The translations under genes and the position numbers were made by a program. Of a stretch of DNA of 52,895 bases, positions 16,766 to 34,677 are shown piece after piece. Source of the DNA: a virus; the IMG/VR virus record IMGVR_UViG_3300032050_000187, positions 1 through 52,895 of that record, one strand, 5' to 3'. The notes under the pieces were generated by a model that was not told the DNA's origin, made no database searches, and was given only the letters and a program-made list of their open reading frames with translations. How positions within the stretch are numbered: position 1 is the first letter of the stretch; each line of letters opens with the position of its first letter.

Positions 16766-16793
16766 AGTATACCACCTGTCAATCGTTGGACAA
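16766..16793 (-). promoter_or_regulatory. Leftward late promoter
   Basis: On the minus strand TTGTCC, 16-bp spacer, TATACT, with TGG before the -10 hexamer (extended -10). It would start RNA near 16759 and give the terminase mRNA a leader of about 390 nt. It overlaps the operator palindrome at 16773-16796. No other good sigma70-like site was seen on this strand in the gap. Confidence 0.6.
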
Positions 16794-16796
16794 GTG
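16773..16796. promoter_or_regulatory. Operator-like palindrome TGTC-N8-GACA, copy 1
   Basis: CACCTGTC, 8 bp, GACAAGTG: an inverted repeat over the spacer and -35 hexamer of the late promoter. Related copies lie at 24497-24520 and 34654-34677, and the three share TGTC-N8-GACA with a CCAAC core on one strand. A repressor bound here would block late transcription. Confidence 0.55.
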
Positions 16797-16992
16797 TTTT
16801 GTGGAATTTTTTAAAAAATTTATGGGGGTAGTGAAAAGGATTACAGGAAATTGGGATTATGGCTGGGGAACAGTGTTCATACATGGGCGGGGCTGTGCTG
16901 CCTATAAGGGTTGGTGGGGGTAGGGTGGGGTCTAAAGGTTTCAGTTATTGGGCCGCTTCGCCCTGCTCTGAGAGCTATCGTTCTACCCCTCG

Positions 16993-17001
16993 TGGTAAAA
17001 T
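16993..17001 (+). promoter_or_regulatory. Early rightward promoter, extended -10
   Basis: TGGTAAAAT: TG-G extension plus TAAAAT, 77 bp before the first early gene. The -35 region (AGCTAT) is poor, as is common with an extended -10. It points rightward, back to back with the late promoter. Transcription would start near 17008. Confidence 0.45.
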
Positions 17002-17009
17002 AGAGGCAT

Positions 17010-17056
17010 CGGTTGGGGGAACTCAACCGCTGTGTAGCCCCGCCACTCTGCGGGGC
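17010..17056 (+). promoter_or_regulatory. Two leader hairpins before first early gene
   Basis: CGGTTG/CAACCG (17010-17029) and GCCCCGC/GCGGGGC (17037-17056) fold in the short leader, followed by TTGGAGTATTCACCATG. There is no T-tract, so they more likely stabilise the message or control translation than end transcription. Confidence 0.5.
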
Positions 17057-17077
17057 ATCCTCATTGGAGTATTCACC

Positions 17078-17512
17078 ATGAAACAATCATTCAACGCTCT
17101 CTCACTTCGCACTGCACTCGGCATCACCGATGCCCAGTATCAAGCCGTGAAACCCACGCTCACACTCGCAGACAGTATGTCTGTGACCCTTGCGGCCAAG
17201 CTCATTGAGCTGGGCATTGCGGACAAGACCACGGCTCGGCCATTCGTGGTGTTCTACATCGCCGAGGTTCGCAAGGGTGCGATGGCCTTGATCTACGAGG
17301 GACAGCGTGGCGTGACCTTTGGCAACGGCAACAAGTACGAGCGACAAGTCACTCGGATTCTGAGCAAAATCTTTGACGATGTGCAAGCCGAGCGCAAGCC
17401 CATCAAGGCCAGTGGCAAGGCCGACAAGGTGTCCAAGCTGTTCGAGCAGTGGCAAGCCCTGTCTGCCGCTGAGAAGCGCCGCTTCACTACCCTTCAACTC
17501 AAAGCTGACTGA
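17078..17512 (+). CDS. First early gene, unknown function
   Basis: 144 aa from MKQSFNALSLRTALGITDAQ; the ATG follows TTGGAGTATTCACC, and the frame extends upstream without an RBS. The N-terminal half is helical, the middle has PFVVFYIAEVRKGAMALIYE, and the C-terminal half is basic and ends AEKRRFTTLQLKAD. No known domain recognised. It has its own promoter, leader hairpins and a strong terminator, so it is probably made early and at a high level. Host take-over or transcription control are guesses only. Confidence 0.65.
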   Translation: MKQSFNALSLRTALGITDAQYQAVKPTLTLADSMSVTLAAKLIELGIADKTTARPFVVFYIAEVRKGAMALIYEGQRGVTFGNGNKYERQVTRILSKIFDDVQAERKPIKASGKADKVSKLFEQWQALSAAEKRRFTTLQLKAD

Positions 17513-17576
17513 CAGACAGTTTGTCTGCGAGTTTTTCCCAGCGGCTTGCCCGAGAGGGTGTGCCGCTGTTTCTTTT
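17513..17576 (+). terminator. Tandem hairpins ending first early transcript
   Basis: CAGACA-GTT-TGTCTG (17513-17527) with TTTTT at 17532-17536, then the stronger stem CAGCGGC...GCCGCTG (17539-17568) containing CCC-GAGA-GGG and followed by TTTCTTTT. The second is a clear rho-independent terminator. The first shares GTCTG with the repeated hairpins at 18029 and 19191. Confidence 0.8.
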
Positions 17577-17587
17577 CCTGTCAAACC

Positions 17588-17602
17588 ATGCAAACTTTGC
17601 AT
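17588..17602. promoter_or_regulatory. Perfect 15-bp palindrome before second early gene
   Basis: ATGCAAA-C-TTTGCAT, exact in both arms, lies between the terminator and the RBS TAGGAGTTTCACC. Placement and symmetry suggest a protein-binding site, but no clear promoter hexamers are seen around it. Confidence 0.4.
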
Positions 17603-17620
17603 AACCCTAGGAGTTTCACC

Positions 17621-17770
17621 ATGACCAAGCACGACTGGATCATCGAACAGATGCGTCCCAAAACCCCCTTCGATTTCTACTGGGATTTGTTCTTTGGGGA
17701 CTGCGACCTCGATGACCTGCCCCCTCTGAGCGAAACCACCGCCATTGCCCAGGCGTTCGCCGACCTTTAA
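17621..17770 (+). CDS. Small acidic early protein
   Basis: 49 aa, MTKHDWIIEQMRPKTPFDFY then WDLFFGDCDLDDLPPLSETT. Start set by TAGGAG 6 nt before the ATG. Strongly acidic and aromatic. Small acidic early proteins in phages often act on host factors or mimic DNA; this one matches nothing I recognise. Confidence 0.6.
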   Translation: MTKHDWIIEQMRPKTPFDFYWDLFFGDCDLDDLPPLSETTAIAQAFADL

Positions 17771-17799
17771 CCCAACCCATTCAACTCAGGAGATTCACC

Positions 17800-18024
17800 A
17801 TGCGTTCAACCCACTTCCCCCTGCTCAAAGATCGTGGCACCCTCACCCTGCCCACTGGTCGCTGGCTCATTCAAGACTACTTCCCCCAATATCCCAAGCG
17901 GGACTTCCGCATCACCACTGTGCAGAACCGAGACACCCTGCGCTCTATGTCCTTTGCGTCAGACGCCGCCTTCGAGTCCTGGCTTGAGGTCAACTGCCAA
18001 CCAGTGCAACTTCCCCTGCTGTGA
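17800..18024 (+). CDS. Small early protein, unknown function
   Basis: 74 aa, beginning MRSTHFPLLKDRGTLTLPTG and ending NCQPVQLPLL. RBS AGGAGATTCACCATG. The pattern GTLTLPTGRWLIQDYFPQYP suggests a small beta-sheet protein. It ends 4 bp before the repeated hairpin at 18029. Unknown. Confidence 0.6.
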   Translation: MRSTHFPLLKDRGTLTLPTGRWLIQDYFPQYPKRDFRITTVQNRDTLRSMSFASDAAFESWLEVNCQPVQLPLL

Positions 18025-18028
18025 GAGC

Positions 18029-18055
18029 AACTTGCAGACGCAATGTCTGCAAGTT
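18029..18055 (+). terminator. Repeated hairpin, copy A
   Basis: AACTTGCAGAC, loop GCAAT, GTCTGCAAGTT: an exact 11-bp stem 4 bp after a stop codon, followed by TCTGTT. The same stem with a different loop is at 19191-19217. It resembles a bidirectional terminator, though the T-tract is short. Confidence 0.65.
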
Positions 18056-18090
18056 TCTGTTAAATAGCAAAAAGTAATACTAAAAAGTTC

Positions 18091-18384
18091 GTATCACCTA
18101 TTTAACAACTTGGACACGAGCACAGACACCTCCAAACCCGCATGGATACTAGCGTCCGCCTTCCCGGTGGCTATATATCTATATTTTTATTTATATTTAT
18201 ATATAGGGGAGTGGGTATGTATGGGTTTGCCCCCGCTTCCAGCCTTTGTCTTTTGTTTTTGCGGGCTTTGCTTTTTGCGAATACCAAAAACAACAGATAC
18301 CTTGCCACCAAATGGGCTAAACCCTTGATGGCATTGGCTTTTTCGCTGTCTTTGCTCGTGTCCATTTTGTTTAATAGGTGATAC
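18091..18384. repeat. 294-bp element with 38-bp terminal inverted repeats and A/T tract
   Basis: Arm 18091-18128 (GTATCACCTATTTAACAACT...) matches the reverse complement of 18347-18384 at 34 of 38 positions. The repeats face inward around 218 bp that include 18172-18205, a 34-bp run with a single G/C base. TTC stands just outside both ends, a possible 3-bp target duplication. No transposase is present and no coding frame has an RBS. A replication origin with an unwinding tract, or a MITE-like insertion, are the two readings. It fills most of the 437-bp gap between 18025 and 18461. Confidence 0.65.
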
Positions 18385-18398
18385 TTCCGGATAGCACC

Positions 18399-18427
18399 TT
18401 ACAAAAACATGATAAATAGCGTATACT
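18399..18427 (+). promoter_or_regulatory. Early promoter TTACAA-N17-TATACT
   Basis: Near-consensus sigma70 site with ideal 17-bp spacing, 35 bp before the gene at 18462. Start near 18434. It lies just outside the right arm of the inverted-repeat element. It would restart transcription after the hairpin at 18029 and may drive the small-gene string. Confidence 0.75.
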
Positions 18428-18461
18428 TCAAGCCCCACTCACACACGAAAGGCCCACAGCC

Positions 18462-19190
18462 ATGTTTGAAAACAAAAACACCCGCCTTGTGCGACTACCC
18501 CCGCGCCTGTTGTTGGCCGAAGCCAACCGCCTGACCAAAGGGGTGCCGTACCTGCAAGGCACGCTATTTAACGCAGTAATGCAGAAGAAGAAACTGGCCC
18601 GCAGTCAACGCAACAAGAAGGCAGCACACGCCCGCTTGTGGAAACCCATCATCAACACCGCTAAATACGAGCGCCGAAATGTGCGCGTGATGCACGATTA
18701 CCAAGCCCGCTTGCCCGAACCGACCCCTCGCCTTGAAGCATTGGGTTTGTATCTGGTGGTACTGGATAAGGTAATCGAGCAACTCGAAGCGCACATTACC
18801 TTGGGGGAATACACGCCAGCGCAGTATGCAAAGGAACACAACCTGCCCAATGTGGGGGTGCACTGGTCTGACTGGGTGAAGGAATCCCACAAGCGCAACC
18901 TGACCGCAGTCTTTGCCGCACTCCCCCGAACAGGGCGCAAGAACAAGCACCCCTTTGCCCGCACAGTACCCAAGCCCATCTTCGAGAAGCAACACGCCCA
19001 ACTTGTCAAACGCACAACCAGCGACCTGGACAACGAGCGCAAGCGCTTGGCCGATGACCCGAACGACGGTAACTCATTCAAAAGAATAAAACAGATGATG
19101 CGGGTGCTGGCCGTGCTCAAAGATATGAAAGAACCCCAAGCCCTGCCCAACACATGGCATGGGCTGGCCCACCAGAAGGATGAGGAATAA
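18462..19190 (+). CDS. Basic early protein, unknown function
   Basis: 242 aa from MFENKNTRLVRLPPRLLLAE. Highly basic, with many Lys/Arg/His; KKKLARSQRNKKAAHARLWK in the first third, a central helical part (LVVLDKVIEQLEAHITLGEY), and NWHG-like aromatic residues near the end. No known fold recognised. Weak but present RBS (GAAAGG). Nucleic-acid binding would suit its charge. It has its own promoter, and a hairpin follows one base after its stop. Confidence 0.6.
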   Translation: MFENKNTRLVRLPPRLLLAEANRLTKGVPYLQGTLFNAVMQKKKLARSQRNKKAAHARLWKPIINTAKYERRNVRVMHDYQARLPEPTPRLEALGLYLVVLDKVIEQLEAHITLGEYTPAQYAKEHNLPNVGVHWSDWVKESHKRNLTAVFAALPRTGRKNKHPFARTVPKPIFEKQHAQLVKRTTSDLDNERKRLADDPNDGNSFKRIKQMMRVLAVLKDMKEPQALPNTWHGLAHQKDEE

Positions 19191-19246
19191 AACTTGCAGA
19201 CACGGTGTCTGCAAGTTTCCGGTCTGCCGCCTGCCGACTCAGGCGG
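19191..19246 (+). terminator. Repeated hairpin, copy B, plus second hairpin
   Basis: AACTTGCAGAC, loop ACGGT, GTCTGCAAGTT (19191-19217), flanked by AAA and TTCC, identical in stem to the copy at 18029. A second stem CCGCCTG/CAGGCGG (19227-19246) follows, then TACTTTAAGGAG. Together they separate the 242-aa gene from the small-gene string. Confidence 0.65.
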
Positions 19247-19265
19247 TACTTTAAGGAGAAGTGAG

Positions 19266-19502
19266 ATGAAGAACTATTGGTATTTGCGTATCGGCACCGA
19301 CACACTTGAGGAAGCCCAGCGCTTTTCTAAAAAGAGCGATGCGATTAACGCATACAAATGTGTGGCCAAAGAGTTGGCGTTTTATGGGCAGGCCATTGAC
19401 GCTTCGATTCACATTGCGCCCACTCGTGCCGAGGTCGTGGAGTATCCCGACTATGTGCTGTCGTTGAACGAAAACGGCAGAGTTGTAACTGAGCAAGCAT
19501 AA
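19266..19502 (+). CDS. Small early protein 1 of the string
   Basis: 78 aa from MKNYWYLRIGTDTLEEAQRF. Start set by AAGGAGAAGTGAG; the frame extends upstream into the hairpins without an RBS. Predicted alpha/beta with a segment SDAINAYKCVAKELAFYGQA. Similar short proteins of the form YYLRIGTDTxEEAxxFSxKxxA occur in other phages, as I recall, without a known role. Confidence 0.6.
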   Translation: MKNYWYLRIGTDTLEEAQRFSKKSDAINAYKCVAKELAFYGQAIDASIHIAPTRAEVVEYPDYVLSLNENGRVVTEQA

Positions 19503-19513
19503 GGAGAAGAGAA

Positions 19514-19786
19514 ATGAAGATGCACAACATTTATTTTGTGGAAGTTACCGACACCTACGGAGGCGAAGCCAACTACTCGTGGGTCAAGCGGTTCAAAGTA
19601 CACGCCAACACCGAGCGAGGGGCCATGCGCAAGGTAGCCCGCCACATGGGGTATGGCGGCGGGACATCCCGAGACTGGGACACGGGCGACATAGCACGCT
19701 GGGTGTGGAAGCACGCCTGTGTCTGTGCGTTCGTGCAAGGGTACGAAGACCAAGCCGAGCACTTCATGTATGTCGAGTCAATTTAA
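19514..19786 (+). CDS. Small early protein 2
   Basis: 90 aa, MKMHNIYFVEVTDTYGGEAN then YSWVKRFKVHANTERGAMRK. Aromatic-rich, with a Gly-rich turn (GYGGGTSRDWDTGD) and a Cys pair (ACVCAF). RBS AGGAGAAGAGAAATG. The first 45 residues look like a single beta-sheet unit; unknown function. Confidence 0.6.
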   Translation: MKMHNIYFVEVTDTYGGEANYSWVKRFKVHANTERGAMRKVARHMGYGGGTSRDWDTGDIARWVWKHACVCAFVQGYEDQAEHFMYVESI

Positions 19787-19803
19787 ACCAAAGGAGAAAG
19801 CAA

Positions 19804-19947
19804 ATGAACGAAGTCAAAGCAACAACTGCCCAAGTGGTGTGGGAAATCCTCAACGCCGCACTGTATGACCTGACCAAAGGCAACCCAGCCGATGGCATCG
19901 CCGCCATTGAGGAAGCGATTCAACTGTTGGAAGGAGAAAGCAAATGA
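19804..19947 (+). CDS. Small early protein 3
   Basis: 47 aa, MNEVKATTAQVVWEILNAAL then YDLTKGNPADGIAAIEEAIQ. Helical and acidic, like one TPR-type helix pair. It ends LLEGESK because the RBS of the next gene lies inside its last codons. Confidence 0.6.
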   Translation: MNEVKATTAQVVWEILNAALYDLTKGNPADGIAAIEEAIQLLEGESK

Positions 19948-20129
19948 ACCAAGGCACAAACGCCCCAACCAAACCCCAGTTCGAGGGGCAGATAGTCAAG
20001 TTCAAGTCACCCCATGCAGATGTGGTGCTGTACGACATAGCCAAGCGCAACGCCAAGTATGGCCACCTTGAGTGGTGGGCGCTGAACGACCCAACGAGTG
20101 AGCAGATAACCAAAGGAGAGCAAGCATGA
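19944..20129 (+). CDS. Small early protein 4
   Basis: 61 aa, MNQGTNAPTKPQFEGQIVKF, then KSPHADVVLYDIAKRNAKYG. ATGA overlap with the previous gene. Unknown; the central segment may be a small beta-hairpin-helix unit. Confidence 0.58.
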   Translation: MNQGTNAPTKPQFEGQIVKFKSPHADVVLYDIAKRNAKYGHLEWWALNDPTSEQITKGEQA

Positions 20130-20260
20130 CTGCAATGGAACTGTACGAACTGCTGAACAAAGCAGAGATTGATTACGAAATCATTGAGATATTCGAGGGT
20201 GCGCGGTTCATCCGCATCGAGGTAGAGGAAGAAGACACAACCGAAGGAGAAAGCAAATGA
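20126..20260 (+). CDS. Small early protein 5
   Basis: 44 aa, MTAMELYELLNKAEIDYEII then EIFEGARFIRIEVEEED. ATGA overlap on both sides and RBS AAAGGAGAGCAAGC. Predicted helix followed by two beta strands. It ends TTEGESK, the same junction-coded tail as genes 3 and 6. Confidence 0.58.
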   Translation: MTAMELYELLNKAEIDYEIIEIFEGARFIRIEVEEEDTTEGESK

Positions 20261-20532
20261 GTGCAATAGACCTGGACTACGCCATGCTGCACAAGGCAGC
20301 GCAACAGATGGAGAAGGAAGGCGGCAGCTTCGCCAAGCACATAGCACAAGCGTTCTATGTGGCAGACAGCACCAACATGGAGACGCTAGTGCGTGCGTTC
20401 GACAGCCTGTTCAGTGAGTACTACCGCAAGTACCGCAGAGCACAAATCATAAGCATCAGGGAAGACTACGAGAACGCATGCGACCGCCCGTACACAAGAG
20501 GAATGTTTACAAACGAAGGAGAAAGCAAATGA
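20257..20532 (+). CDS. Small early protein 6
   Basis: 91 aa, MSAIDLDYAMLHKAAQQMEK then EGGSFAKHIAQAFYVADSTN. Helical; KEGGSFAKHIAxAFYxAD is a pattern I recall from other phage small proteins. ATGA junctions on both sides; ends TNEGESK. Unknown function. Confidence 0.62.
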   Translation: MSAIDLDYAMLHKAAQQMEKEGGSFAKHIAQAFYVADSTNMETLVRAFDSLFSEYYRKYRRAQIISIREDYENACDRPYTRGMFTNEGESK

Positions 20533-20756
20533 GAGAACCACAACAACACTTCTACGCATCCAGCGTATCGCAGTGGGCAACGACCAACGACAAGCGCGAC
20601 CTGCGCCAGTTGTTGAGACTCATGGACAAGGACGGGTATCCCTACAACCTGTTCCTCGTGCCGCTGGATCACACCGCCAGCTACGACATCAAGATGTACC
20701 AACCCCAAGTCGAGGGCACACAGTGGCTTGGCTTTTTTGAACCAAAGGAGAAGTGA
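20529..20756 (+). CDS. Small early protein 7
   Basis: 75 aa, MREPQQHFYASSVSQWATTN then DKRDLRQLLRLMDKDGYPYN. The start is the ATG after GAAGGAGAAAGCAA. The C-terminal half (YNLFLVPLDHTASYDIKMYQ) suggests a small alpha/beta fold. Unknown. Confidence 0.6.
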   Translation: MREPQQHFYASSVSQWATTNDKRDLRQLLRLMDKDGYPYNLFLVPLDHTASYDIKMYQPQVEGTQWLGFFEPKEK

Positions 20757-20757
20757 G

Positions 20758-21018
20758 ATGAAACATCAATGGAACACAGGCAGACAGTACGACGAGCACG
20801 GCCAACGCATGGTGGCCGAGGTACACAAGGAAACCCTAACGAACGACCCGCGCATTTACTTCAGCGACCTGTCACGCCACATCAATGGCTATGTACCGCT
20901 GGGTATGTGGGCACAGACAGGGGACAAGTACGCCATCGAGACGCTGGTCATGACCAACTATGACTTTGGCAACTACTCACCGAGCAACATAACTCTTGAA
21001 TGGAAGGAAACGAAATGA
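20758..21018 (+). CDS. Small early protein 8
   Basis: 86 aa, MKHQWNTGRQYDEHGQRMVA, then IYFSDLSRHINGYVPLGMWA. RBS AAAGGAGAAGTGAG, the same 18-bp junction as before the gene at 19266. The N-terminus with MVAEVHKETLTNDPRIYFSD suggests a small beta-sheet protein. Unknown. Confidence 0.62.
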   Translation: MKHQWNTGRQYDEHGQRMVAEVHKETLTNDPRIYFSDLSRHINGYVPLGMWAQTGDKYAIETLVMTNYDFGNYSPSNITLEWKETK

Positions 21019-21326
21019 AGATCAAGACAAGTGAATTAACAGGAGCCGCCCTTGATTGGGCGGTGGCAAAGTGTGAAGGCAACGAAATATCTATTCCTAA
21101 AGGATACCTTTGGATTCCAACAGAATGCTATGCAACCTATTGGCAACAAGGTGGCCCCATCATTGAGCGTGAGGGGATTGCCCTCTATCTGTACGGCGGC
21201 TCCGAATGGAATGCCCATGTTGGCGGTCGTGAGTCGGTCGGCCCCACACCATTAATCGCCGCTATGCGGTGCTATGTGGCGGCTAAGTGGAACCATGAGG
21301 TAGAGATACCAGAGGAGTTGAAATGA
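21015..21326 (+). CDS. DUF2591 / NinX-like protein
   Basis: 103 aa starting MKIKTSELTGAALDWAVAKC, the hallmark of DUF2591, which includes P22 NinX. Further agreement: the aromatic middle and the late motif PTPLIAAMRCYVAAKWNHEV. The role is unknown in the family; NinX is encoded in the lambdoid nin region. The ATG after GGAAGGAAACGAA is chosen; an ATG 15 bases earlier would add five residues. Confidence 0.85.
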   Translation: MKIKTSELTGAALDWAVAKCEGNEISIPKGYLWIPTECYATYWQQGGPIIEREGIALYLYGGSEWNAHVGGRESVGPTPLIAAMRCYVAAKWNHEVEIPEELK

Positions 21327-21526
21327 ACGGACTTGACGCATACCACGATGCCCTGCTCGACAGGCATCTAGACCGACTCGACACAGAGGACACACGCTCT
21401 GCACTGGCTGACGCTGAACGCGAACGACTGCTCGACTTGGTTATCCAAGCGCAGGTTGCACTGTCGAGGGACGACAAGGAGATTGCCATGTGCATCTTGA
21501 ATGAAATCGAAAAGGAACTGGAATAA
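21323..21526 (+). CDS. Small helical acidic protein
   Basis: 67 aa, MNGLDAYHDALLDRHLDRLD then TEDTRSALADAERERLLDLV. Almost all helix, with a charged heptad pattern that may form a helical hairpin. ATGA overlap with the NinX-like gene. Unknown function. Confidence 0.6.
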   Translation: MNGLDAYHDALLDRHLDRLDTEDTRSALADAERERLLDLVIQAQVALSRDDKEIAMCILNEIEKELE

Positions 21527-21595
21527 ACACGAGTATGGGTTAGCGGTGTGCCCTCTCACACCGCGCTTTCAATTAGTAAAAACTGGAGAAGCAAA

Positions 21596-22930
21596 ATGAA
21601 ATTATTGTTTAGCACATTCATGATGGCCGCTGATGTTGTGTACTGCCACCGCGCATGGTTCAGGCGTGAGACCCGCAAGTACAAACTGCACCCTGTTGTT
21701 GAGGCCGCGCTCGATGTGTGCCGCCCTGATGACTGGCATCAGTTGTTGCTTGAGTGGCCGCACATATCCGAGGGTGACCCATCCCGCTTGGCATACACAC
21801 GAGACGAGCGTGCAGGCGAGGCCGACAGACAGACTGTCACGACCATCGGCAAGTATCTGTTCAGGCACTTCAGCGATATGCCCGACCACAAGATGCGTGA
21901 CTTGGCCGCGCTGTATGGCTCCAATGGCGAGTGCAGGTTCGTGCACACCATGGCTGAGATGCTGCACCACTTGAAGCGTGGGCCGTCATCTTGTATGACT
22001 GGCGACAGGGACTACCACTGTGTCGATGGCGTGTTGCGCCATGCCTATGAGGTGTATGACCCGAGCCTTGGCTGGCACATGGCCGTGCGCTTGGAGTTCG
22101 GCAAGACTGTGGGTCGTGCGCTGTGCTGTGGCAAGACCTATGTGCGCTCTTACAAGTACAACCCGAATGGAGGTGGCTCACCCACTGACGAGACGCTTGA
22201 AGCGTGGCTTGAGCAGCAGGGGTACGACAAGGAGTGCACATGGGGTGGCTTGAAGATCATGCACTACGAGACACGATGCGGCGACACACTGGCACCCTTC
22301 ATTGACGGCGAGGACAAGTACGCTACCAAGAAGGGCGACTACTTGGTCATCACGGATGACAGCGATGCCGAGTATCAGTGCGACAACACAGGCGGCACAG
22401 CCAGTGAGAACCGAGGCACACCATGCGAGGACTGCGGCGACCGCGTGGACGATGGCGATGGGTACTGGGTCGGCCCACACGAGGAGACGATGGTGTGCCA
22501 GAGTTGTTGCAACCACCACTACACATATGCGTACAGCAGGCGCAGGCATCAGGCGTACATCGGCAATGACTTTGTGGTGTATGTCGAGTCGCAAGACCAG
22601 CACTATGACGAGGACTATCTCGACGACAACGACATCGTGTTGCTTGAGAACGGCGACTACGAGCACACCGACAACGCTGTGGAGATTGACGGCGAGTGGT
22701 TCCACATCGAGGACGAGAACATTGTCTGTGACCACAACGGCGACTACCAACTGCTCAACAACTGCGTGAAGTTGGAGGACGGCGAGTACGCCCTGGCCGA
22801 GGAGGCGTGGCTGTGCGCCGGGTCTGCCGACTGGTACCTGAGCGATGATGTTGACCCTGTGGTTGTGGATGGCGAGACCTATCATCCCGACTATGCACCC
22901 GAGCAAGAAACCGAAGAAGAAGGAGAATGA
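21596..22930 (+). CDS. Large zinc-finger protein with acidic C-terminal repeats
   Basis: 444 aa. The ATG follows ACTGGAGAAGC; the frame extends 16 codons further up without an RBS. The N-terminal 270 residues hold scattered Cys and His. CEDC (277-280) and CQSC (301-304) form a likely zinc ribbon. From about 350 to 435 come six degenerate repeats of about 15 residues (NGDYEHTDNAVEID, GEWFHIEDENIVCDHN, GDYQLLNNCVKLED, GEYALAEEAWLCAG and so on). The protein is very acidic and ends in a run of Glu. Its stop overlaps the peptidase gene, so the two are probably made together. I know similar tails in other aquatic phages but no function. Confidence 0.7.
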   Translation: MKLLFSTFMMAADVVYCHRAWFRRETRKYKLHPVVEAALDVCRPDDWHQLLLEWPHISEGDPSRLAYTRDERAGEADRQTVTTIGKYLFRHFSDMPDHKMRDLAALYGSNGECRFVHTMAEMLHHLKRGPSSCMTGDRDYHCVDGVLRHAYEVYDPSLGWHMAVRLEFGKTVGRALCCGKTYVRSYKYNPNGGGSPTDETLEAWLEQQGYDKECTWGGLKIMHYETRCGDTLAPFIDGEDKYATKKGDYLVITDDSDAEYQCDNTGGTASENRGTPCEDCGDRVDDGDGYWVGPHEETMVCQSCCNHHYTYAYSRRRHQAYIGNDFVVYVESQDQHYDEDYLDDNDIVLLENGDYEHTDNAVEIDGEWFHIEDENIVCDHNGDYQLLNNCVKLEDGEYALAEEAWLCAGSADWYLSDDVDPVVVDGETYHPDYAPEQETEEEGE

Positions 22931-22932
22931 GT

Positions 22933-24024: not shown

Positions 24025-24034
24025 CGGGTGTCAT

Positions 24035-24075: not shown

Positions 24076-24219
24076 ATGTTTGAAGAACTTTATTGCGTGT
24101 ACTGCTTGACCCCCAAGGGGGACAGCTTCTCTTGTTGCCAAGAGAACCATTTCGTGCCGTTCGATGATCTTTATCCCGAAGATCAGGCGGCTTTACTAGA
24201 GGAGATGAAAGATGAATGA
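24076..24219 (+). CDS. Small Cys-rich protein
   Basis: 47 aa, MFEELYCVYCLTPKGDSFSC. CVYC and SCC plus a downstream His form a possible zinc knuckle; the second half is acidic. RBS AAAGGAAC. It overlaps the next gene by 8 bp. Unknown. Confidence 0.6.
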   Translation: MFEELYCVYCLTPKGDSFSCCQENHFVPFDDLYPEDQAALLEEMKDE

Positions 24220-24514
24220 CAAGACCTACAACGGCTGGACGAACTACGCCACATGGCGTGTGAACCTGGAGATATTCGATGACGCGGACAAAGCCGAACT
24301 GTTCGATCTATCCTTGCCTGTTGAACAACTGCGCCATGTGCTGCAAGATTATGTGGAGGGGCACATCTACGAGGCAGGCGGGGGCGAAGGCAATATTGCT
24401 GTGGACTACGCGTTGGCATTTCTGTCGGATGTGAACTGGTACGAGATCGCCAAGCACATGATTGACGATGCAAAGGCAAAGGCCGAAGCACCCACTAACT
24501 TGTCCAACACTTGA
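24212..24514 (+). CDS. Conserved phage protein with NGWTNYATWRVNLE motif
   Basis: 100 aa. MNDKTYNGWTNYATWRVNLE is a recurring start in phage small proteins (I recall DUF7249), function unknown. The rest is helical: LRHVLQDYVEGHIYEAGGGE and NWYEIAKHMIDDAKAKAEAP. RBS GAGGAGATGAAAG. Its stop codon lies inside the -35 hexamer of the promoter at 24511, so a new transcript begins right behind it. Confidence 0.7.
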   Translation: MNDKTYNGWTNYATWRVNLEIFDDADKAELFDLSLPVEQLRHVLQDYVEGHIYEAGGGEGNIAVDYALAFLSDVNWYEIAKHMIDDAKAKAEAPTNLSNT

Positions 24515-24520
24515 CAGAAG
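24497..24520. promoter_or_regulatory. Operator-like palindrome TGTC-N8-GACA, copy 2
   Basis: AACTTGTCCAACACTTGACA then GAAG. The palindrome TGTC-N8-GACA covers the -35 box of the promoter at 24511-24539. It shares CTTGTCCAAC and TTGACAG with the copy in the late promoter. Confidence 0.55.
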
Positions 24521-24539
24521 TTTAATTGCGAGGTACATT
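24511..24539 (+). promoter_or_regulatory. Sigma70-like promoter TTGACA-N17-TACATT
   Basis: A consensus -35 box, ideal spacing and a four-of-six -10 box. Start near 24546, just before the RBS (CGGAGAAGC) of the gene at 24562. The -35 box is part of the palindrome at 24497-24520, so a bound protein would block it. This is probably a second early or middle promoter feeding the DNA metabolism genes. Confidence 0.75.
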
Positions 24540-24782: not shown

Positions 24783-25436
24783 ATGCCCGACTTACAAACC
24801 GCACTCACCACTGCAATCAAGCACCAAGTTTTAACAACAACCATCAACGAATGGGACAAAGAGGAGCAGCAGACCATGCAAGCACAAACACAACCACAGA
24901 TACAACCCATGCAAACACAAACTCAGATCAACGGCAACAGCAAACTCACCCTCACGGGCAACCTATCCAAAGACATCTTCGTCTACATCAGAGACAACCC
25001 TGGCTGCTTACGCGCCGATGTACGAAAGGTGTTTATGGCGGCGGGTTTTAAGGAGGCTTCAATAGGCTCTCTTGTTTCGCAGATGGTGCGCAACAAAATG
25101 GTGAGCATCAACGAGGTAGGCAACCTCGAAGCAAAACGCGTTTACTACAAGCCCCTGATTAGCGGGGCCAAGAGAAAAGAGATGAACAAAAAGCTGGGCA
25201 TAGCACGCGACAAGCCCGCATCAAAGCCCGCAAAGCCCAAGGCGCAAGGCATAGCCGCGCTGGCTCCCGAGCCTACCCAGAGTGCAGACAAAGGCCAGGA
25301 AGCGCTGGATAAGGTGCTGGCCAAGCCTGTGCGTGAAGCGCGTGCTGTCTACGATGCGATGTGCATACTGCGTGACCTGGATGTGGGCGAGGCGCGGTAT
25401 GTGTACGCCGAGTTGCACAAACTGTTCGGAGGTTGA
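24783..25436 (+). CDS. Putative winged-helix DNA-binding protein
   Basis: 217 aa. A Gln-rich linker (residues about 33-50) separates a short N-terminus from LTGNLSKDIFVYIRDNPGCL, RADVRKVFMAAGFKEASIGS and LVSQMVRNKMVSINEVGN, then KRVYYKP. That is the three-helix plus wing pattern of small winged-helix domains. A Lys/Pro-rich linker and a helical C-terminal part (LRDLDVGEARYVYAELHKLF) follow. It may regulate phage transcription. The start follows the previous stop by two bases. Confidence 0.6.
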   Translation: MPDLQTALTTAIKHQVLTTTINEWDKEEQQTMQAQTQPQIQPMQTQTQINGNSKLTLTGNLSKDIFVYIRDNPGCLRADVRKVFMAAGFKEASIGSLVSQMVRNKMVSINEVGNLEAKRVYYKPLISGAKRKEMNKKLGIARDKPASKPAKPKAQGIAALAPEPTQSADKGQEALDKVLAKPVREARAVYDAMCILRDLDVGEARYVYAELHKLFGG

Positions 25437-27903: not shown

Positions 27904-28271
27904 AAATAGAAAAAGAATGGACAACGAAAGCGGGGTTCAAAGCCGAGGTGATTGCCACCGACATGGGGCATCGCTGTGGGTATGTGTCCGTGCCAAAGGA
28001 TCACCCATGGCATGGCAAGACCTACAACGATGTTGACCTTGATGTGCATGGCGGGTTGACCTACGCTGGCATGGAGGATGGCGATTGGTGGTTTGGGTAT
28101 GACTGCGCCCATCTTGGGGATGCCCGTGACCCCGAATTGATGAGCGACGAATACAAAAATGTTTTGCTGGGGAGGAAGCTGAACTTTGATGGCGACACCG
28201 TGAAGACGCTGGACTTCTGTGTAAACGAATGCGAATCAATGGCATGGCAATTGAAGGAGGTGAACACATGA
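27900..28271 (+). CDS. Conserved phage protein (CGYV, VHGGLTYAG, WWFGYDCAH)
   Basis: 123 aa. The series RCGYVSVPKDHPWHGKTYND, DVHGGLTYAG, DWWFGYDCAHLGDARDP and VNECESMAWQL recurs in many phage and prophage proteins. It has conserved Cys, His and Asp, which hints at a metal site or enzyme, but the function is not known to me. ATGA overlap on both sides. One of the best conserved members of this string. Confidence 0.78.
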   Translation: MKIEKEWTTKAGFKAEVIATDMGHRCGYVSVPKDHPWHGKTYNDVDLDVHGGLTYAGMEDGDWWFGYDCAHLGDARDPELMSDEYKNVLLGRKLNFDGDTVKTLDFCVNECESMAWQLKEVNT

Positions 28272-28462
28272 CCGCAAAAGAAGAACTTACCAAGCTGCTC
28301 ATGGAAAGCTATGACCAAGGGGTTAAAGACGGGCTTCAAACAATCCTGCAACTCATCAAGGAACTGCGCCCTGCGATCAATCCGCTGGATGGCATGGGCA
28401 AAGGCAAGACCACGCATGAGTGGTTCGACATTTTGGTCAAAGACATTGAGGAGAAGATATGA
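28268..28462 (+). CDS. Small helical protein
   Basis: 64 aa, MTAKEELTKLLMESYDQGVK, then DGLQTILQLIKELRPAINPL. Start set by GGAGGTGAACAC before ATG. Amphipathic helices and a GKGKTTHEWFDIL end. Unknown. Confidence 0.6.
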   Translation: MTAKEELTKLLMESYDQGVKDGLQTILQLIKELRPAINPLDGMGKGKTTHEWFDILVKDIEEKI

Positions 28463-28722
28463 AAACCTGCGAAACCTGCTCACATTGGGAGCGATGGAAT
28501 AAAGATGAATATGAATTTAAGGTGGGTATGGGCGAGTGCATGATGGTTGTGCTGTGGTGGGATGCGTCTGAATGGGACGGGGACAAAAACGGCTACAACC
28601 GAATCATTTCACCAAAATACAAAGACCAAAAAGCATTCACGCAAGATGGCAGTGATTATTCTGCCGCGCTGTACACACGAAAAGATTTTGGGTGTGTTGA
28701 ACACAAGGAGAAGAACACATGA
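28459..28722 (+). CDS. Small Cys-rich protein
   Basis: 87 aa. CETCSHWERW at residues 4-13, further Cys at about 27 and 79 and an acidic middle. The MxTCxTCxHW opening is common among phage proteins, where these cysteines probably bind zinc. Function not known. ATGA overlap with the HTH gene. Confidence 0.68.
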   Translation: MKTCETCSHWERWNKDEYEFKVGMGECMMVVLWWDASEWDGDKNGYNRIISPKYKDQKAFTQDGSDYSAALYTRKDFGCVEHKEKNT

Positions 28723-28937
28723 AAGGTGGAGCAAGACCGGGCAGTGGGCGCAAGCCCACATTGATTGACGAGCGTAGAGCGTTGAGCCTACACAAGCAGG
28801 GCGTATCCATGCGGGAGATTGCCGAGCGGTTTGGTGTTAGCCTACAGGTCATCAAATACTTTTTTAGAAAGCGCAGGAAACAAAATGGCAATGACCCCCG
28901 AAGCACTTGTAAAAAAGAAAGTCAAGCAGTTGCTTGA
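28719..28937 (+). CDS. Small helix-turn-helix DNA-binding protein
   Basis: 72 aa. An AT-hook-like start (MKGGARPGSGRKPTL) is followed by an HTH of the resolvase/transposase type: RALSLHKQGVSMREIAERFG then VSLQVIKYFFRKRR. Proteins of this kind often precede a nuclease or regulate small operons. It overlaps the VRR-NUC gene by 53 bp in another frame. One of the candidate binders of the TGTC-N8-GACA sites. Confidence 0.7.
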   Translation: MKGGARPGSGRKPTLIDERRALSLHKQGVSMREIAERFGVSLQVIKYFFRKRRKQNGNDPRSTCKKESQAVA

Positions 28938-29184
28938 CGCCAACGCGGTGTACCACTTCTCGCCTGTGCAAAACGGCATGGGCAGGGCTGGCATACCAGA
29001 CATCATCTGCTGTTACTTTGGCACGTTCATCGCCATCGAGTGCAAGGCGGGCAAGGGCAAGACCACCGCGCTGCAAGACATGGAGTTGGCCAAGATACAG
29101 CAGGCCGGGGGGACGGCACTGGTTATCAACGAGGAGAACATTGAATTGGTAAAACAAACTTTAAAGGAACTGCTATGCGAATAA
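28885..29184 (+). CDS. VRR-NUC family nuclease
   Basis: 99 aa from MAMTPEALVKKKVKQLLDAN, the whole of a minimal VRR-NUC domain. PD-(D/E)xK residues are present: GIPD (Asp39), then IECK (Glu52, Lys54) and Gln64. GMGRAGIPDII is the typical family signature. Stand-alone viral members are structure-selective nucleases, proposed to resolve replication or recombination intermediates. It lies just before the polymerase gene, as expected for this role. Confidence 0.85.
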   Translation: MAMTPEALVKKKVKQLLDANAVYHFSPVQNGMGRAGIPDIICCYFGTFIAIECKAGKGKTTALQDMELAKIQQAGGTALVINEENIELVKQTLKELLCE

Positions 29185-29450
29185 CACAAGAGGACATAGA
29201 ACGCCGAGTGGCATCCATGACCGATGCCCAGAGAGACCACTTCAAAACGCTGGTGTACGCACTGCTCCAGTGCTACGCCGAGGACAAGCACGCTGCTGTC
29301 ATTGTGCTGGGCGACTTGAGCGATGAGAGCGCCAGCGTGGTCACAGTCAACTGCAACGAGATGGATGCCGCCACGCTGCTGCTGGCAGCGGACAACTTCT
29401 TTAACTACATCAACATGCGTGAAGCACCACCCAAAGAGGCCATGAATTGA
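29175..29450 (+). CDS. Small protein preceding DNA polymerase
   Basis: 91 aa, MRITQEDIERRVASMTDAQR, with AAVIVLGDLSDESASVVTVN and a helical end (DAATLLLAADNFFNYINMRE). Overlaps the nuclease gene by 10 bp and the polymerase by 4 bp. I recall similar proteins at this place in other phages; function unknown. Confidence 0.62.
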   Translation: MRITQEDIERRVASMTDAQRDHFKTLVYALLQCYAEDKHAAVIVLGDLSDESASVVTVNCNEMDAATLLLAADNFFNYINMREAPPKEAMN

Positions 29451-31423
29451 GTAAACCATTTGAACGCGCCATCGTGCTGGACTTTGAAACTGCCTGGGGG
29501 CGCGGCGTGAAGCTGGGCTTTTCTTGCCAGACCATGGAGGAGTACATACGCGACCCCCGCTTCAAGGCGTGGGGAGTGTCTTGGAAAGAGCTTGGCGGCG
29601 AAGCACCCGCAGTATGGGTTAGACGCAGGGACTTGCCCGAGTTCTTCAAGTCAATCGACTGGAGCACCACCGCGGTCATGGCACAAAACGCAGGGTTCGA
29701 TGTGTCGATCATGGAGTGGCACTACAACGCACACCCAGCGTTCATCATGGACACGCTGTCTATGGGCCGGGCACTGCGCGGTGTGGAGGTGGGCAACAGC
29801 TTGGCCAAGCTGGCCAAAGACCTGGGCCTGCCGCCCAAGGGGGACGGGCTGTCGCCATCAGAGAACATACTGGACGAATTGCCTGCGAATGTGGAGGTCA
29901 CGCTGGCTGAGTACTGCTGCCATGACACATGGCTGTGTGAACAAATTTTCTTTGGGCTTGGTGGCTGGGACTACCCCACAAAAGAACTCAAACTCATTGA
30001 CATGACGCTCAAGATGTACACACGCCCAGTGTTGCAGCTTGACCAGCAGATGTTGATACAAGCATTAACAGAGGAAGGAAACATACGTGAAGCGCTCCTA
30101 CAACGTCTTAACATCGATGAGTCTGAGCTGGCGTCAAACCCTAAGTTTGCGCAGATTCTTACAGGCCTTGGCGTTACACCCCCGACAAAAATCAGTAAGA
30201 CCACAGGCAAACAAACGCTTGCCCTGGCAAAAAACGATGCACTCTTCCAAGCCCTCCTCAATGGTTCGAATGAGGATGTTGCGCTCCTTTGCGAAGCGCG
30301 GCTCAAGGTCAAGTCAACAACCGAACGGACAAGGGCACAGCGGTTCTTGGACATCAGCCAGCGTGGTGCGCTCCCGGTTCCGCTTTCGTACTACGGTGCT
30401 CAGACTGGGCGATGGACGGCAGCTAAGGGGTCAGCCATCAACATGCAAAACCTCAAGCGCGGTTCGTTCTTACGTAAAGCGATTATGGCTCCCGATGGCT
30501 ACCAACTCGTTGTCGGCGACCTCTCGCAGATTGAGCCGCGAGTACTCGCGTGGCTGGCTGACTACGACGATATGCTCGACATCTTCCGGGCTGGAGGTGA
30601 CCCTTACGCGGCATTCGGAAGTCAGATGTTCAACATACCCGGCCTTACTAAAGAGTCTCATCCTGACCTGCGGCAATCTGCGAAGAGCGCGTTACTGGGC
30701 TGCGGCTATGGGCTGGGCTGGTCATCGTTCGCGTCACAGCTTCTTACGGGGTTCCTTGGGGCTCCCCCAGTTCGCTACTCGAAAGAGTTTGCTAAAGCAC
30801 TGGGCGTGGACGGAGAATATGCACAACGCTTCCTAGACTGGGATGAGAACGTCAAGAAGCTGGAGGAAATCCCCCACACCTGCACCACGCAAGAGTTGCT
30901 GGTGCACTGCCTTGCGGCCAAGAAGATCATCGACATCTACCGCGCCACTGCGGCCCCTGTCGTGGACTTATGGGGGATGTTTGGCCAGCTTATTGAGAGC
31001 AGCCTGTACAACGGCAAGGAGTACACGCACAAGTGCCTGACCTTCAAGAAGGGGGAGATCGTCTTGCCAAGCGGCATGAGCTTGTTGTATCCTGACTTGA
31101 AGCCCATCAAGGATGACAAGGGCCGGGTGCAGTGGGTTTACGGCCCCGACCAGACCAAGCTATATGCTGGTAAGATAACGAACAACGTCACGCAGGGCGT
31201 AGCAAGATGCGTGATGACAGACGGGATGCTTCGCGTAGCAAAACAGTATCCAGTCAAAGGGACAGTGCATGACGAGCTGATTGCCGTTGTGCCTGACGAT
31301 GAAGTAGCCACCGCTAAGACATGGGTCTTGGCGCAGATGACTATGGAGCCGAAGTATTTGCCGGGGATACCCCTGGCCGCTGACGGTGGTGCGCACCGTC
31401 GTTATGGGTTAGCAAAAAATTAA
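29447..31423 (+). CDS. Family A DNA polymerase with 3'-5' exonuclease
   Basis: 658 aa. Exonuclease motifs: LDFET (Asp12, Glu14), NAGFD (Asp85), YCCHD (Asp160). Polymerase motif A is GDLSQIEPR (Asp358), motif B R409-x3-K413-x7-Y421-G, motif C HDE (608-610). The position that equals Phe762 of E. coli Pol I is Leu417. The start is a TTG (29447-29449); no in-frame ATG comes early enough to keep the exonuclease motif. The gene begins with a 4-bp overlap with its neighbour. It replicates the phage genome. No DNA ligase or separate clamp is seen. Confidence 0.93.
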   Translation: MSKPFERAIVLDFETAWGRGVKLGFSCQTMEEYIRDPRFKAWGVSWKELGGEAPAVWVRRRDLPEFFKSIDWSTTAVMAQNAGFDVSIMEWHYNAHPAFIMDTLSMGRALRGVEVGNSLAKLAKDLGLPPKGDGLSPSENILDELPANVEVTLAEYCCHDTWLCEQIFFGLGGWDYPTKELKLIDMTLKMYTRPVLQLDQQMLIQALTEEGNIREALLQRLNIDESELASNPKFAQILTGLGVTPPTKISKTTGKQTLALAKNDALFQALLNGSNEDVALLCEARLKVKSTTERTRAQRFLDISQRGALPVPLSYYGAQTGRWTAAKGSAINMQNLKRGSFLRKAIMAPDGYQLVVGDLSQIEPRVLAWLADYDDMLDIFRAGGDPYAAFGSQMFNIPGLTKESHPDLRQSAKSALLGCGYGLGWSSFASQLLTGFLGAPPVRYSKEFAKALGVDGEYAQRFLDWDENVKKLEEIPHTCTTQELLVHCLAAKKIIDIYRATAAPVVDLWGMFGQLIESSLYNGKEYTHKCLTFKKGEIVLPSGMSLLYPDLKPIKDDKGRVQWVYGPDQTKLYAGKITNNVTQGVARCVMTDGMLRVAKQYPVKGTVHDELIAVVPDDEVATAKTWVLAQMTMEPKYLPGIPLAADGGAHRRYGLAKN

Positions 31424-31433
31424 GGAGTAAGCA

Positions 31434-31751
31434 ATGACAGTTAGACACAGACCACTGCCACACAAGCTGCGTGTGGGCAACAAGACATACTCGGTTGAGG
31501 TTGTCGAAGCGATGATCGAGAAGAACCTGATGGGGCGCACGTATTACCCCGACAGAAACATCAAGATCGGACTCAAGAGCAACCGCACCGGGCGTGTGTA
31601 CAAGCCCGCTGAAATCCACGACACCTTCTGGCACGAGGTGGTGCACGCCATACTGCACGACATGGACGAGGACCGCTTGAACAGAGACGAGCGCTTTGTT
31701 ACCCGGTTCGCCAACCGCTTGGCCAAAGCAATCGAGACTGCGAGATTTTGA
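31434..31751 (+). CDS. Small HExxH zincin-like protein
   Basis: 105 aa. FWHEVVHAILHDMDED (HExxH at 67-71) is a zinc peptidase signature, preceded by a beta-sheet N-terminus and followed by a helix with FANRLAKAIE. Compact size and the motif recall ImmA/IrrE-like or SprT-like proteins. Phages carry such proteins in replication clusters, perhaps to clear proteins from DNA, which is inference. It overlaps the nuclease gene by one base (TGATG). Confidence 0.72.
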   Translation: MTVRHRPLPHKLRVGNKTYSVEVVEAMIEKNLMGRTYYPDRNIKIGLKSNRTGRVYKPAEIHDTFWHEVVHAILHDMDEDRLNRDERFVTRFANRLAKAIETARF

Positions 31752-32416
31752 TGAATCAAGTCACATGGAGCCATAGCGCTCTCAAGGACTTCGAGGGGTG
31801 CGCACGCAGGCACTACGAAGTCAAGGTGCTTAATAACTACCCGTTCCAAGAAACGGAGGCCACGCGCTACGGCACAAGCTTTCACACAGCAGCCGAGGTC
31901 TACATTCGGGACGGCACACCGCTGCCCCCTGAGTTTGAGTACGCCACGGCTGTGTTAGATGCGCTCCTGGCCAAGCCGGGGAGGAAGCTGTGCGAGTACG
32001 AGATGGGCATCACCCCGGACTTGCAGCCGTGTGACTTCAACGAACCCAAGCGCTGGGTCAGGGGTATCGCTGACTTGCTCATCATTGACGACGACAACCT
32101 GACCGCCTCGGTGCTGGACTACAAGACGGGCAACAACAAGTACCCAGACCGTGACCAGCTAAAGCTGATGTCCCTCATGGTGTTCAAGCACTTCCCCCAT
32201 ATCCGCAAGGTGCGTTCAGCGCTGCTGTTCGTGGTCAAGAACGATATGGTCAAGCACACCATGACCGTGGACGAAGCCGATGCTGAGTGGTGGCGCTATC
32301 GTGAGCGTGTGGCCAAGCTGGAAGCCTGCTATGCCACAGGCGTTTGGAACCCCACCCGCACCCCGCTGTGCGGCTGGTGCCCTGTGAGATCATGTGAGTT
32401 CAATCCTAAACACTGA
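31751..32416 (+). CDS. Cas4/RecB-like PD-(D/E)xK exonuclease with Fe-S cysteines
   Basis: 221 aa. GTSFH (His45), GIAD (Asp108), LDYKTG (Asp123, Lys125) and Gln136 are the RecB-type active site. Cys17 plus CGWC and RSC at the end (207, 210, 215) match the four cysteines that hold an [4Fe-4S] cluster in AddB and Cas4. Such enzymes chew DNA ends for recombination; with the SSB-like gene it suggests a phage recombination pathway. No CRISPR genes are near. Start at ATG after TTG. Confidence 0.8.
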   Translation: MNQVTWSHSALKDFEGCARRHYEVKVLNNYPFQETEATRYGTSFHTAAEVYIRDGTPLPPEFEYATAVLDALLAKPGRKLCEYEMGITPDLQPCDFNEPKRWVRGIADLLIIDDDNLTASVLDYKTGNNKYPDRDQLKLMSLMVFKHFPHIRKVRSALLFVVKNDMVKHTMTVDEADAEWWRYRERVAKLEACYATGVWNPTRTPLCGWCPVRSCEFNPKH

Positions 32417-32425
32417 AAGGAATGT

Positions 32426-32725
32426 ATGTCAACCATAGAACCTAACGCCCCGGCTTTTGGCTGCGCCACCTTGTGCCACGTATGCCGCAAACCTGTAGAT
32501 ATGTCCGATTTTGCTGTCGAACACGACGGCCATGTAGGGGTGCGCAACCAATCATTTACCGTTGAAGGTTACGGGAATATCATCATGCACGCAGAGTGTG
32601 CGACCGTGTTGGCGATGCGGTTAATTCACGATGTAATGAAACAAAAAGAGCGCACCGCTCAAACCCCGCTGCGTGTTGTAGAAGCACTTGGCAAACTCAG
32701 AAAGGCAAATCATGGCAACTCGTAA
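32426..32725 (+). CDS. Small zinc-finger-like protein
   Basis: 99 aa. CHVCRKPVDMSDFAVEHDGH and a later His/Cys (MHAEC) form a possible zinc site. RBS AAAGGAATGT. The end (KAQTPL-RVVEALGKLRKA type) is helical. It overlaps the HNH gene by 14 bp. Unknown. Confidence 0.6.
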   Translation: MSTIEPNAPAFGCATLCHVCRKPVDMSDFAVEHDGHVGVRNQSFTVEGYGNIIMHAECATVLAMRLIHDVMKQKERTAQTPLRVVEALGKLRKANHGNS

Positions 32726-32945
32726 CTACGCAAAAGAATACGCAAACTATCAGGGCAAGCCCGAACAGATTGCAAAGACAGGCGAACGCGTGAAGGCGCG
32801 GCGCATGATGGTTAAAGCTGGCAAGGCCAGCAAGGGGGACGGCAAAGACGTAGACCACGTTAAGCCCATCCGCAGCGGGGGGACAACTACTATAAACAAT
32901 CTTCGTATGCGCAATCGCAGTTCAAACCGAGGAGACAACAAATGA
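32712..32945 (+). CDS. HNH endonuclease-like protein
   Basis: 77 aa. DVDHVKPIRSGGTTTINNLR then MRNRSSNRGDNK is the DHxxP...N..N core of the HNH nuclease motif. The N-terminal half is basic and lacks the usual CxxC zinc pairs, so this is a minimal form. Roles for small phage HNH proteins include packaging nicks and homing; this one is inside the replication cluster, away from terminase. The start ATG lies in the overlap with the preceding gene. Confidence 0.75.
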   Translation: MATRNYAKEYANYQGKPEQIAKTGERVKARRMMVKAGKASKGDGKDVDHVKPIRSGGTTTINNLRMRNRSSNRGDNK

Positions 32946-33052
32946 CCTTTGATGATTGGTGGAAGACCCTCACGGTCTCAGAGCAAAAGCTCATAGGCTA
33001 CAACGTAGCCCGCTTTGTTTGGGAACAAGCGCTGGCGTTAGGAAAAAAATAA
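32942..33052 (+). CDS. 36-aa protein before helicase
   Basis: MTFDDWWKTLTVSEQKLIGY continues with NVARFVWEQALALGKK. ATGA overlap with the HNH gene, aromatic and helical. Its stop lies 12 bp before the helicase start. The FDxWWxxxTxxExKxxGxNVARFVWEQA form recurs in other phages as I recall. Unknown function. Confidence 0.58.
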   Translation: MTFDDWWKTLTVSEQKLIGYNVARFVWEQALALGKK

Positions 33053-33064
33053 ACCGAGAAGCAA

Positions 33065-34624
33065 ATGGAAATCATAGACAACAAAGCACTGCTGTTCACT
33101 ACCCGCAACCCCAACAAATACTGCATCATCCCAAAGCACAAAGTCATGCCCCGCACAGATGGCGGCTTTGATGTTGCAGTCTACTGGGGGTTGGACGAGG
33201 CGCGTGTGTTGAAGAACCTTGGTGTCAAAGACGTACCCTCGCCCATTGTGAGGAAGTACCCCTGGCCTGGGCGCTACAAACCCATGGCCCACCAAGTCGA
33301 GACCGCTGCCTTCCTGACACTCAACCGCCGTGCATTTGTGTTCTCGGAACCCGGCACAGGCAAGACGCTATCGGCACTGTGGGCAGCGGACTACTTGATG
33401 CAGCGCGGTGAAGTGCGCCGTGTGTTGATACTGTGCCCCCTGTCGATCATGCAGTCAGCGTGGGTGGGAGACATCAGCAACAGCATCATCCACCGCTCGG
33501 CCATAGTTGCGCACCACCCTCAAGCTAGCCGCCGCATTGAGATGCTTCAGCAGAACTACGAGATCGTCATCACTAACTACGAAGGGCTAAACCTGATAGC
33601 CGATGAGATCAACGCCAACGGCAAGTTCGATCTGGTCATTGTCGATGAGGCCAACGCATACAAGACGGCCACCACACGGCGCTGGAAGGCGCTGGCATCC
33701 ATCATCAAGCCCAACACCTTTCTGTGGATGATGACAGGCACGCCTGCATCGCAGTCGCCTGTCGATGCCTATGGTCTGGCCAAGCTGGTCAACCCGGACG
33801 GTGTGCCCAAGTTCTTCACAGCATGGCGCGACAAGGTGATGAACAAAGTGACCATGTTTAAGTGGGCACCCAAGGCAGATGCTAAGGACACCGTGCATGA
33901 GGCGCTACAGCCCGCCATTCGCTTCACCAAAGAGCAGTGCTTGGACTTGCCCCCTGTCGTGACAACCACACGCGAAGTGCCGCTGACCCCACAGCAGGCC
34001 AAGTACTACAACATGCTCAAAGAGCGCATGGTGGTGCAAGCCGCAGGAGAAACGATCAGCGCGGTCAATGCTGCCGCTGGTGTGTCCAAGCTCTTGCAGA
34101 TCAGTTGCGGTGCGGCGTACACCGATGACAAGGAAGTGGTTGAGTTCGATGCTGCGCCCCGCCTGGGCGTGCTGGAAGAAATTCTGGAGGAGACCAGCCG
34201 CAAGGTGCTGATCTTCGCGCTGTTTCGCTCAAGCATTGACGGCATCCATACGCACCTGCTCAAGAAGGGCATCGCCGCTGAGTGCATCCATGGTGGCGTG
34301 ACGGCCAGCAAACGCGCTGACATCATCCGCCGCTTCCAAGATACGCCCGACCCCCGTGTGCTGGTCATGCAGCCCCAGGCTACAGCGCATGGCATTACCC
34401 TGACCGCTGCCGACACTGTGGTGTTCTACGGCCCGCTGATGAGCGTGGAGCAATACATCCAGTGCATAGCCCGTGCAGACCGCAAGGGGCAGAACTCAGA
34501 CAAGGTGACCGTCATCCACATCGAGGGTAGCCCCATCGAGAAGAAGATGTTCAAAGCCCTTGGCGGCAAAGTGAGCGACAACTCACTGCTGACCGACATG
34601 TTCACCCACGAAATTAAATCTTGA
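33065..34624 (+). CDS. SNF2-like superfamily 2 helicase
   Basis: 519 aa. Walker A SEPGTGKT (94-101), DEAN box (194-197), TGTPA (224-228) and a C-terminal helicase domain with the arginine-finger motif QCIARADRKGQ. The order and short length fit phage DEAD/SNF2-like ATPases that move on double-stranded DNA or remodel replication complexes. RBS GAGAAGC. In context it is a replication or recombination helicase. Confidence 0.88.
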   Translation: MEIIDNKALLFTTRNPNKYCIIPKHKVMPRTDGGFDVAVYWGLDEARVLKNLGVKDVPSPIVRKYPWPGRYKPMAHQVETAAFLTLNRRAFVFSEPGTGKTLSALWAADYLMQRGEVRRVLILCPLSIMQSAWVGDISNSIIHRSAIVAHHPQASRRIEMLQQNYEIVITNYEGLNLIADEINANGKFDLVIVDEANAYKTATTRRWKALASIIKPNTFLWMMTGTPASQSPVDAYGLAKLVNPDGVPKFFTAWRDKVMNKVTMFKWAPKADAKDTVHEALQPAIRFTKEQCLDLPPVVTTTREVPLTPQQAKYYNMLKERMVVQAAGETISAVNAAAGVSKLLQISCGAAYTDDKEVVEFDAAPRLGVLEEILEETSRKVLIFALFRSSIDGIHTHLLKKGIAAECIHGGVTASKRADIIRRFQDTPDPRVLVMQPQATAHGITLTAADTVVFYGPLMSVEQYIQCIARADRKGQNSDKVTVIHIEGSPIEKKMFKALGGKVSDNSLLTDMFTHEIKS

Positions 34625-34653
34625 AAGGAGTTGCAAAGCCAAAAAATATGTGT

Positions 34654-34677
34654 AACATGTCCAACCTTAGACAAAAC
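34654..34677. promoter_or_regulatory. Operator-like palindrome TGTC-N8-GACA, copy 3
   Basis: AACATGTCCAACCTTAGACA then AAAC, in the 68-bp gap before the gene at 34693, the longest gap between two genes in the replication block. It matches copy 2 at 18 of 24 positions. A possible promoter TTGCAA-N16-TAACAT (34631-34658) abuts it. Confidence 0.5.

Follow-up and report, generated by a model that had tools for sequence, protein, structure and literature searches.

Identification of the Palindrome

The virus record IMGVR_UViG_3300032050_000187 from IMG/VR contains three copies of the palindrome TGTC-N8-GACA, which raises the question of whether these are operators and, if so, which protein reads them. 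The window analyzed here is the whole record of 52,895 bases. Exact matches were found at 16777–16792, 24501–24516 and 34658–34673 and nowhere else in the record, confirming the three copies of the original prediction; a near-miss at 15101 within the terminase gene was taken as chance. Copy 1, TGTCAATCGTTGGACA, is located in the divergent gap that separates the rightward block from the leftward block of packaging and virion genes. Since this copy reads TGTCCAACGATTGACA on the minus strand, the same-strand readings of copies 1, 2 and 3 are TGTCCAACGATTGACA, TGTCCAACACTTGACA and TGTCCAACCTTAGACA, and all of them open with TGTCCAAC. All three had been placed in gaps between genes. A hand-made gene list leaves about 5% of the record as non-coding DNA. 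Sites 1 and 3 fall wholly inside it, but 14 of the 16 bases of site 2 lie within the last codons of the ORF 24212–24514. An Rfam search of the window gave no match. Shuffling yielded a mean of 1.09 TGTC-N8-GACA occurrences per shuffle, with three or more in 5 of 100 shuffles, so the evidence from the window by itself is marginal.

Conservation in Relatives

The large terminase gene was used as query, giving 80 IMG/VR loci, which were reduced to 47 regions after dereplication at 88% identity. In the orthologous gap, 600–1300 bp upstream of the terminase, TGTC-N8-GACA is present in 33 of the 47. A scan of all spacers from N0 to N24 at this site found any spacer other than N8 in at most one region, which rules out a chance origin and, despite the marginal statistics of the window, settles the motif as real. 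Site 3 was followed with the HTH gene at 36573 as the starting query in 85 loci that encode distinct HTH proteins and extend 1.9 kb or more upstream. In 72 of these loci, the strict motif, mostly as TGTCCAACCTTAGACA, precedes the HTH gene by 1.4–2.5 kb, the intervening genes being on the same strand; in 13, it is absent. It is kept down to 51% identity of the HTH protein, while N7 and N9 controls match few loci. In L291 and L292, bacterial bins with the most distant HTH relatives found (47% identity), the DNA examined contains no site. The persistence in relatives that the original prediction had called for was thus obtained at both places. Orthologues of site 2, found in L112–L114, L121, L122, L023, L053, L056 and L011, precede relatives of the protein encoded at 24783.

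The consensus from 57 pooled sites is TGTC-[ACT]-A-N4-T-[AGT]-GACA, that is, TGTCHA-N4-TDGACA, with a preferred AC..GT center. Although only the arms were required for collection, A6 and T11 are invariant in all 57. Conservation of a plain −35 box was rejected as the cause, since the left arm is as well kept as the right one and TAGACA or TGGACA is the ending of many sites. The motif-bearing relatives are dozens of uncultured freshwater phages, and the HTH family likewise comes mostly from freshwater phages. Overall, it is very probable that the palindrome is a true operator. The proposal that one regulator would serve the three promoter regions is well supported, because relatives keep the motif at these three positions and the DNA around it diverges.

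In a further subgroup (L115–L119, L123 and L124), the motif was found between the −35 and −10 boxes of promoters of VWA-type (MSFEKMTLNQ...) or MoxR-like AAA genes, both names being read from the sequence. This suggests that the regulon may have been rewired between subgroups.

Predicted Promoters and Neighboring Genes

At site 2, the right arm of the operator forms the −35 box of a plus-strand promoter, TTGACA-17-TACATT (24511–24539), which matches the consensus at 10 of 12 positions and is kept in relatives. The overlap with the −35 box of a near-consensus promoter, as originally described, is therefore correct.

Site 3, like site 2, lies on the rightward replication block. A promoter-like pair, TTGCAA-16-TAACAT (34631–34658, plus strand), precedes the Gam-like, SSB-like and HTH genes. 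It is kept in relatives, either as TTGCAA-16-TACACT or with a −10 box reaching TATGAT; in the window, no promoter passed the consensus scan at copy 3, and this pair was not reported by it. The palindrome begins at the last base of the TAACAT −10 box and occupies about −7 to +9 of this promoter. The site is flanked by an SNF2-type helicase gene and the Gam-like gene, and relatives share the order helicase, site, Gam-like, SSB-like, HTH. The first gene after the site (34693–35097, plus strand) belongs to phrog_13900 and weakly resembles Mu Gam and Pam3 gp33, and the next one (35113–36078, plus strand) encodes an SSB-like/Gp3-like protein with a weak Pfam match, assigned to phrog_27714. Elsewhere in the window, the minus-strand gene at 40056–47675 encodes a 2539-aa protein whose sole matches are PHROGs of unknown function, in its C-terminal part.

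Site 1 had been assigned to the late promoter, and this holds in part. A leftward promoter-like pair, TTGTCC-16-TATACT (16766–16793, minus strand; 9 of 12 positions, TG before the −10), does share the operator, but outside the window only a few close relatives, mainly the closest, show it clearly. Better conserved among relatives is a rightward promoter, T[T/A/G]GACA-18-TATAAA. In the window (16787–16816, plus strand), its −35 box is TGGACA, the right arm of copy 1, followed by an 18-bp spacer and an AT-rich −10 region, which is weak here (TTAAAA) and reads TATAAA in most relatives. A hairpin with a T run resembling an intrinsic terminator (16477–16510, plus strand) usually precedes this rightward promoter in relatives and in most of them directly adjoins the operator.

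To the right of site 1, a long non-coding stretch at 16820–17020 is also conserved in relatives. Within it are a palindrome rich in A and T (AATTTTTATAAAATTT), the conserved element GGGGAAYAGTGTTCA, a block rich in G and, at 16993–17001, TGGTAAAAT, which resembles an extended −10 box. This stretch may serve as a leader, as an origin or in packaging.

Relative to the predicted promoters, the site centers are near −37.5, −25.5 and +1. Which element the operator covers depends on the promoter: −35 box, spacer or −10/+1 region.

Candidate Regulator

Two helix-turn-helix (HTH) proteins, encoded at 36573 and 28719, had been named as alternative regulators. The latter is effectively excluded, since it is present in only 2 of 26 records, the two closest relatives. 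The former, a 92-aa protein (36573–36851, plus strand), is strongly favored. Within the same terminase/HTH group, 32 relatives of 40 kb or more were searched; all of them encode it and all carry the motif, against 1 of 10 in an HTH-less comparison set made up of six IMG/VR records of at least 40 kb and four named phages; these are clade-level counts, and the 32 relatives are not 32 independent events. The four named phages, the distant relatives DSL-LC04, 023Pt_psg01, HTVC027P and Pag-Yong1, have neither the HTH protein nor the strict motif, so there is no annotated phage with the pair among them.

The AlphaFold model of the protein has six helices and a mean pLDDT of 91.7. Its best viral structure matches, in BFVD, are proteins named HTH_XRE from uncultured phages; one has 65% identity (E 6e-9). 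A fold search of the PDB gave XRE folds (HipB, lambda CI, 434 Cro), all weak, with E values of 0.3 or worse, and a sequence search of solved structures gave nothing convincing. In profile searches, generic HTH families match, but HTH_3 does so in only 3 of 29 members and P22_Cro in 1 of 29; the window protein itself is below the Pfam cut-off for HTH_3/XRE, and there is no CRP family among its profile matches. No relative was detected by tblastn against 50,697 phage records. The recognition-helix region, [S/T]RQ[T/S][V/A]YNW, is nearly invariant, like the operator. With its gene downstream in the apparent site-3 operon and its distribution shared with the motif, the protein at 36573 is the best candidate and probably reads the operator.

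In four loci (L101, L103, L104 and L105), the left arm of site 3 is degenerate (TGTA or TGTT) and the −10 box is consensus-like (TATGAT), and their HTH protein carries SRQS instead of [S/T]RQT, which is a possible specificity change. SRQS also occurs in L110 and L286, yet the full site is kept there.

Proposed Regulatory Circuit and Alternatives

The reading that we favor, and consider reasonably likely, is that a single repressor encoded by the phage, the 92-aa HTH protein, has all three palindromes as its operators and acts with negative feedback. Since the half-sites are one turn apart, a dimer is suggested, which would read two TGTCHA half-sites separated by one helical turn and block the host RNA polymerase. 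The protein would cover the −35 box of two promoters, that of site 2 and the rightward one of site 1; it would fill the −35 box and the spacer of the leftward site-1 promoter; and at site 3, it would lie over the −10 box and the start site. Such different positions relative to the core promoter fit a steric repressor, while an activator usually does not tolerate this range. Feedback is proposed because site 3 heads the gene run leading to the HTH gene, provided that those genes form one transcript. Once the rightward genes are on, the repressor would accumulate and damp its own run, the transcript from site 2 and the divergent promoters of site 1. The sites, their conservation and their places on the predicted promoters are observed, as are the conservation and location of the HTH gene; binding, dimerization, the sign of regulation, the single transcript and the timing are what we infer.

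A search for tyrosine integrases alone, with the profile PF00589, found no match in the window record, and the control search was positive in 14 genomes. With no detectable tyrosine integrase, a Cro-like role in the lytic programme is more likely than one in lysogeny. A search for a T7-type RNA polymerase found nothing, but the control set was likewise negative. The early/late switch of the original prediction is plausible on this gene layout. A wider version, in which an undescribed HTH repressor family reads a CooA-like operator and one feedback loop sets both arms of the divergent promoter region of a virulent phage as an early-shutoff/late-release switch, is put forward tentatively and is rather doubtful.

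Sites of the CRP family have the same 16-bp geometry as the palindrome, so the sites might instead bind a host CRP/FNR-type regulator of the CooA kind, borrowed by the phage. This alternative is a real one, since the arms and the spacer are identical to the published CooA consensus, TGTC-N8-GACA, given in the one paper that a full-text search for the motif yielded (PMC7306483). Nevertheless, the site centers are not at the activator positions −41.5 or −61.5 and the motif tracks the phage HTH gene across phages, which makes a host regulator improbable. Moreover, C never precedes GACA in the 57 sites, in contrast to the CGACA of the CooA sites of R. rubrum. The regulator could also be the 217-aa protein encoded downstream of site 2 (24783–25436, plus strand), possibly a winged-helix protein by reading, whose own promoter would carry that site. 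It follows site 2 in the window and several relatives and is present in 17 of 19 long relatives; Pfam, PHROGs and NCBIfam gave no match for it. However, it evolves fast, its identity in relatives being about 30% against a nearly invariant operator, and it was not detected in two motif-bearing records, G028 and G031, with three and one sites, respectively. It is thus a weaker candidate than the HTH protein at 36573 and an unlikely regulator.

Even with the HTH protein as the binder, activation is conceivable, at least at site 2 and the rightward promoter of site 1, as lambda CI activates at PRM. At both promoters, the operator lies on the upstream side of the −35 box and ends within it, but it covers that box fully, and the operator of site 3 over the −10/+1 region is in an unexpected place for an activator, so this possibility is a slight one. 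A role of the palindromes in replication, packaging or recombination rather than transcription is very improbable. Site 1 does lie beside the terminase genes, an AT-rich palindrome and the long conserved non-coding stretch, but sites 2 and 3 have no such neighbors and are placed on promoter elements, and the subgroup with the motif in VWA-type or MoxR-like gene promoters also argues against it.

Comparison with Known Systems

No report of transcription control was found in the literature for this uncultured phage group. The repressor reading gives this widespread group a predicted regulator–operator pair with a precise consensus, which can be used for finding binding sites in metagenomic phages. 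It also makes of an otherwise unremarkable HTH gene part of a circuit open to testing with short synthetic DNA in a heterologous laboratory host.

The TGTC-N8-GACA arms are shared with the operators of CooA, a member of the CRP/FNR family (PMC7306483). The phage HTH protein differs in having no CRP-type match, and its proposed sites are at repressor positions instead of −41.5 or −61.5. Palindromic operator-like sites overlapping predicted promoters in the phage genome, a trait of Cro/CI (XRE) repressors, were found here. The proposed circuit resembles those of lambda, 434 and P22 in its small HTH protein, in palindromic operators over promoters with half-sites one turn apart and, as we infer, in a repressor gene within a controlled operon. 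Unlike the tripartite clusters of those phages, the operators here are single and dispersed, no tyrosine integrase was found, and the HTH sequence is not recognizably related to theirs. A further parallel is TgrL (gp216) of the virulent Caulobacter phage phiCbK, an early XRE regulator that represses transcription and acts on host genes (PMC10688885). Both systems would have an XRE-type regulator encoded by a virulent phage, but the TgrL-related motif pairs a strong half-site with a weak one and the targets are host genes (PMC10688885), whereas the sites described here are full palindromes within the phage genome.
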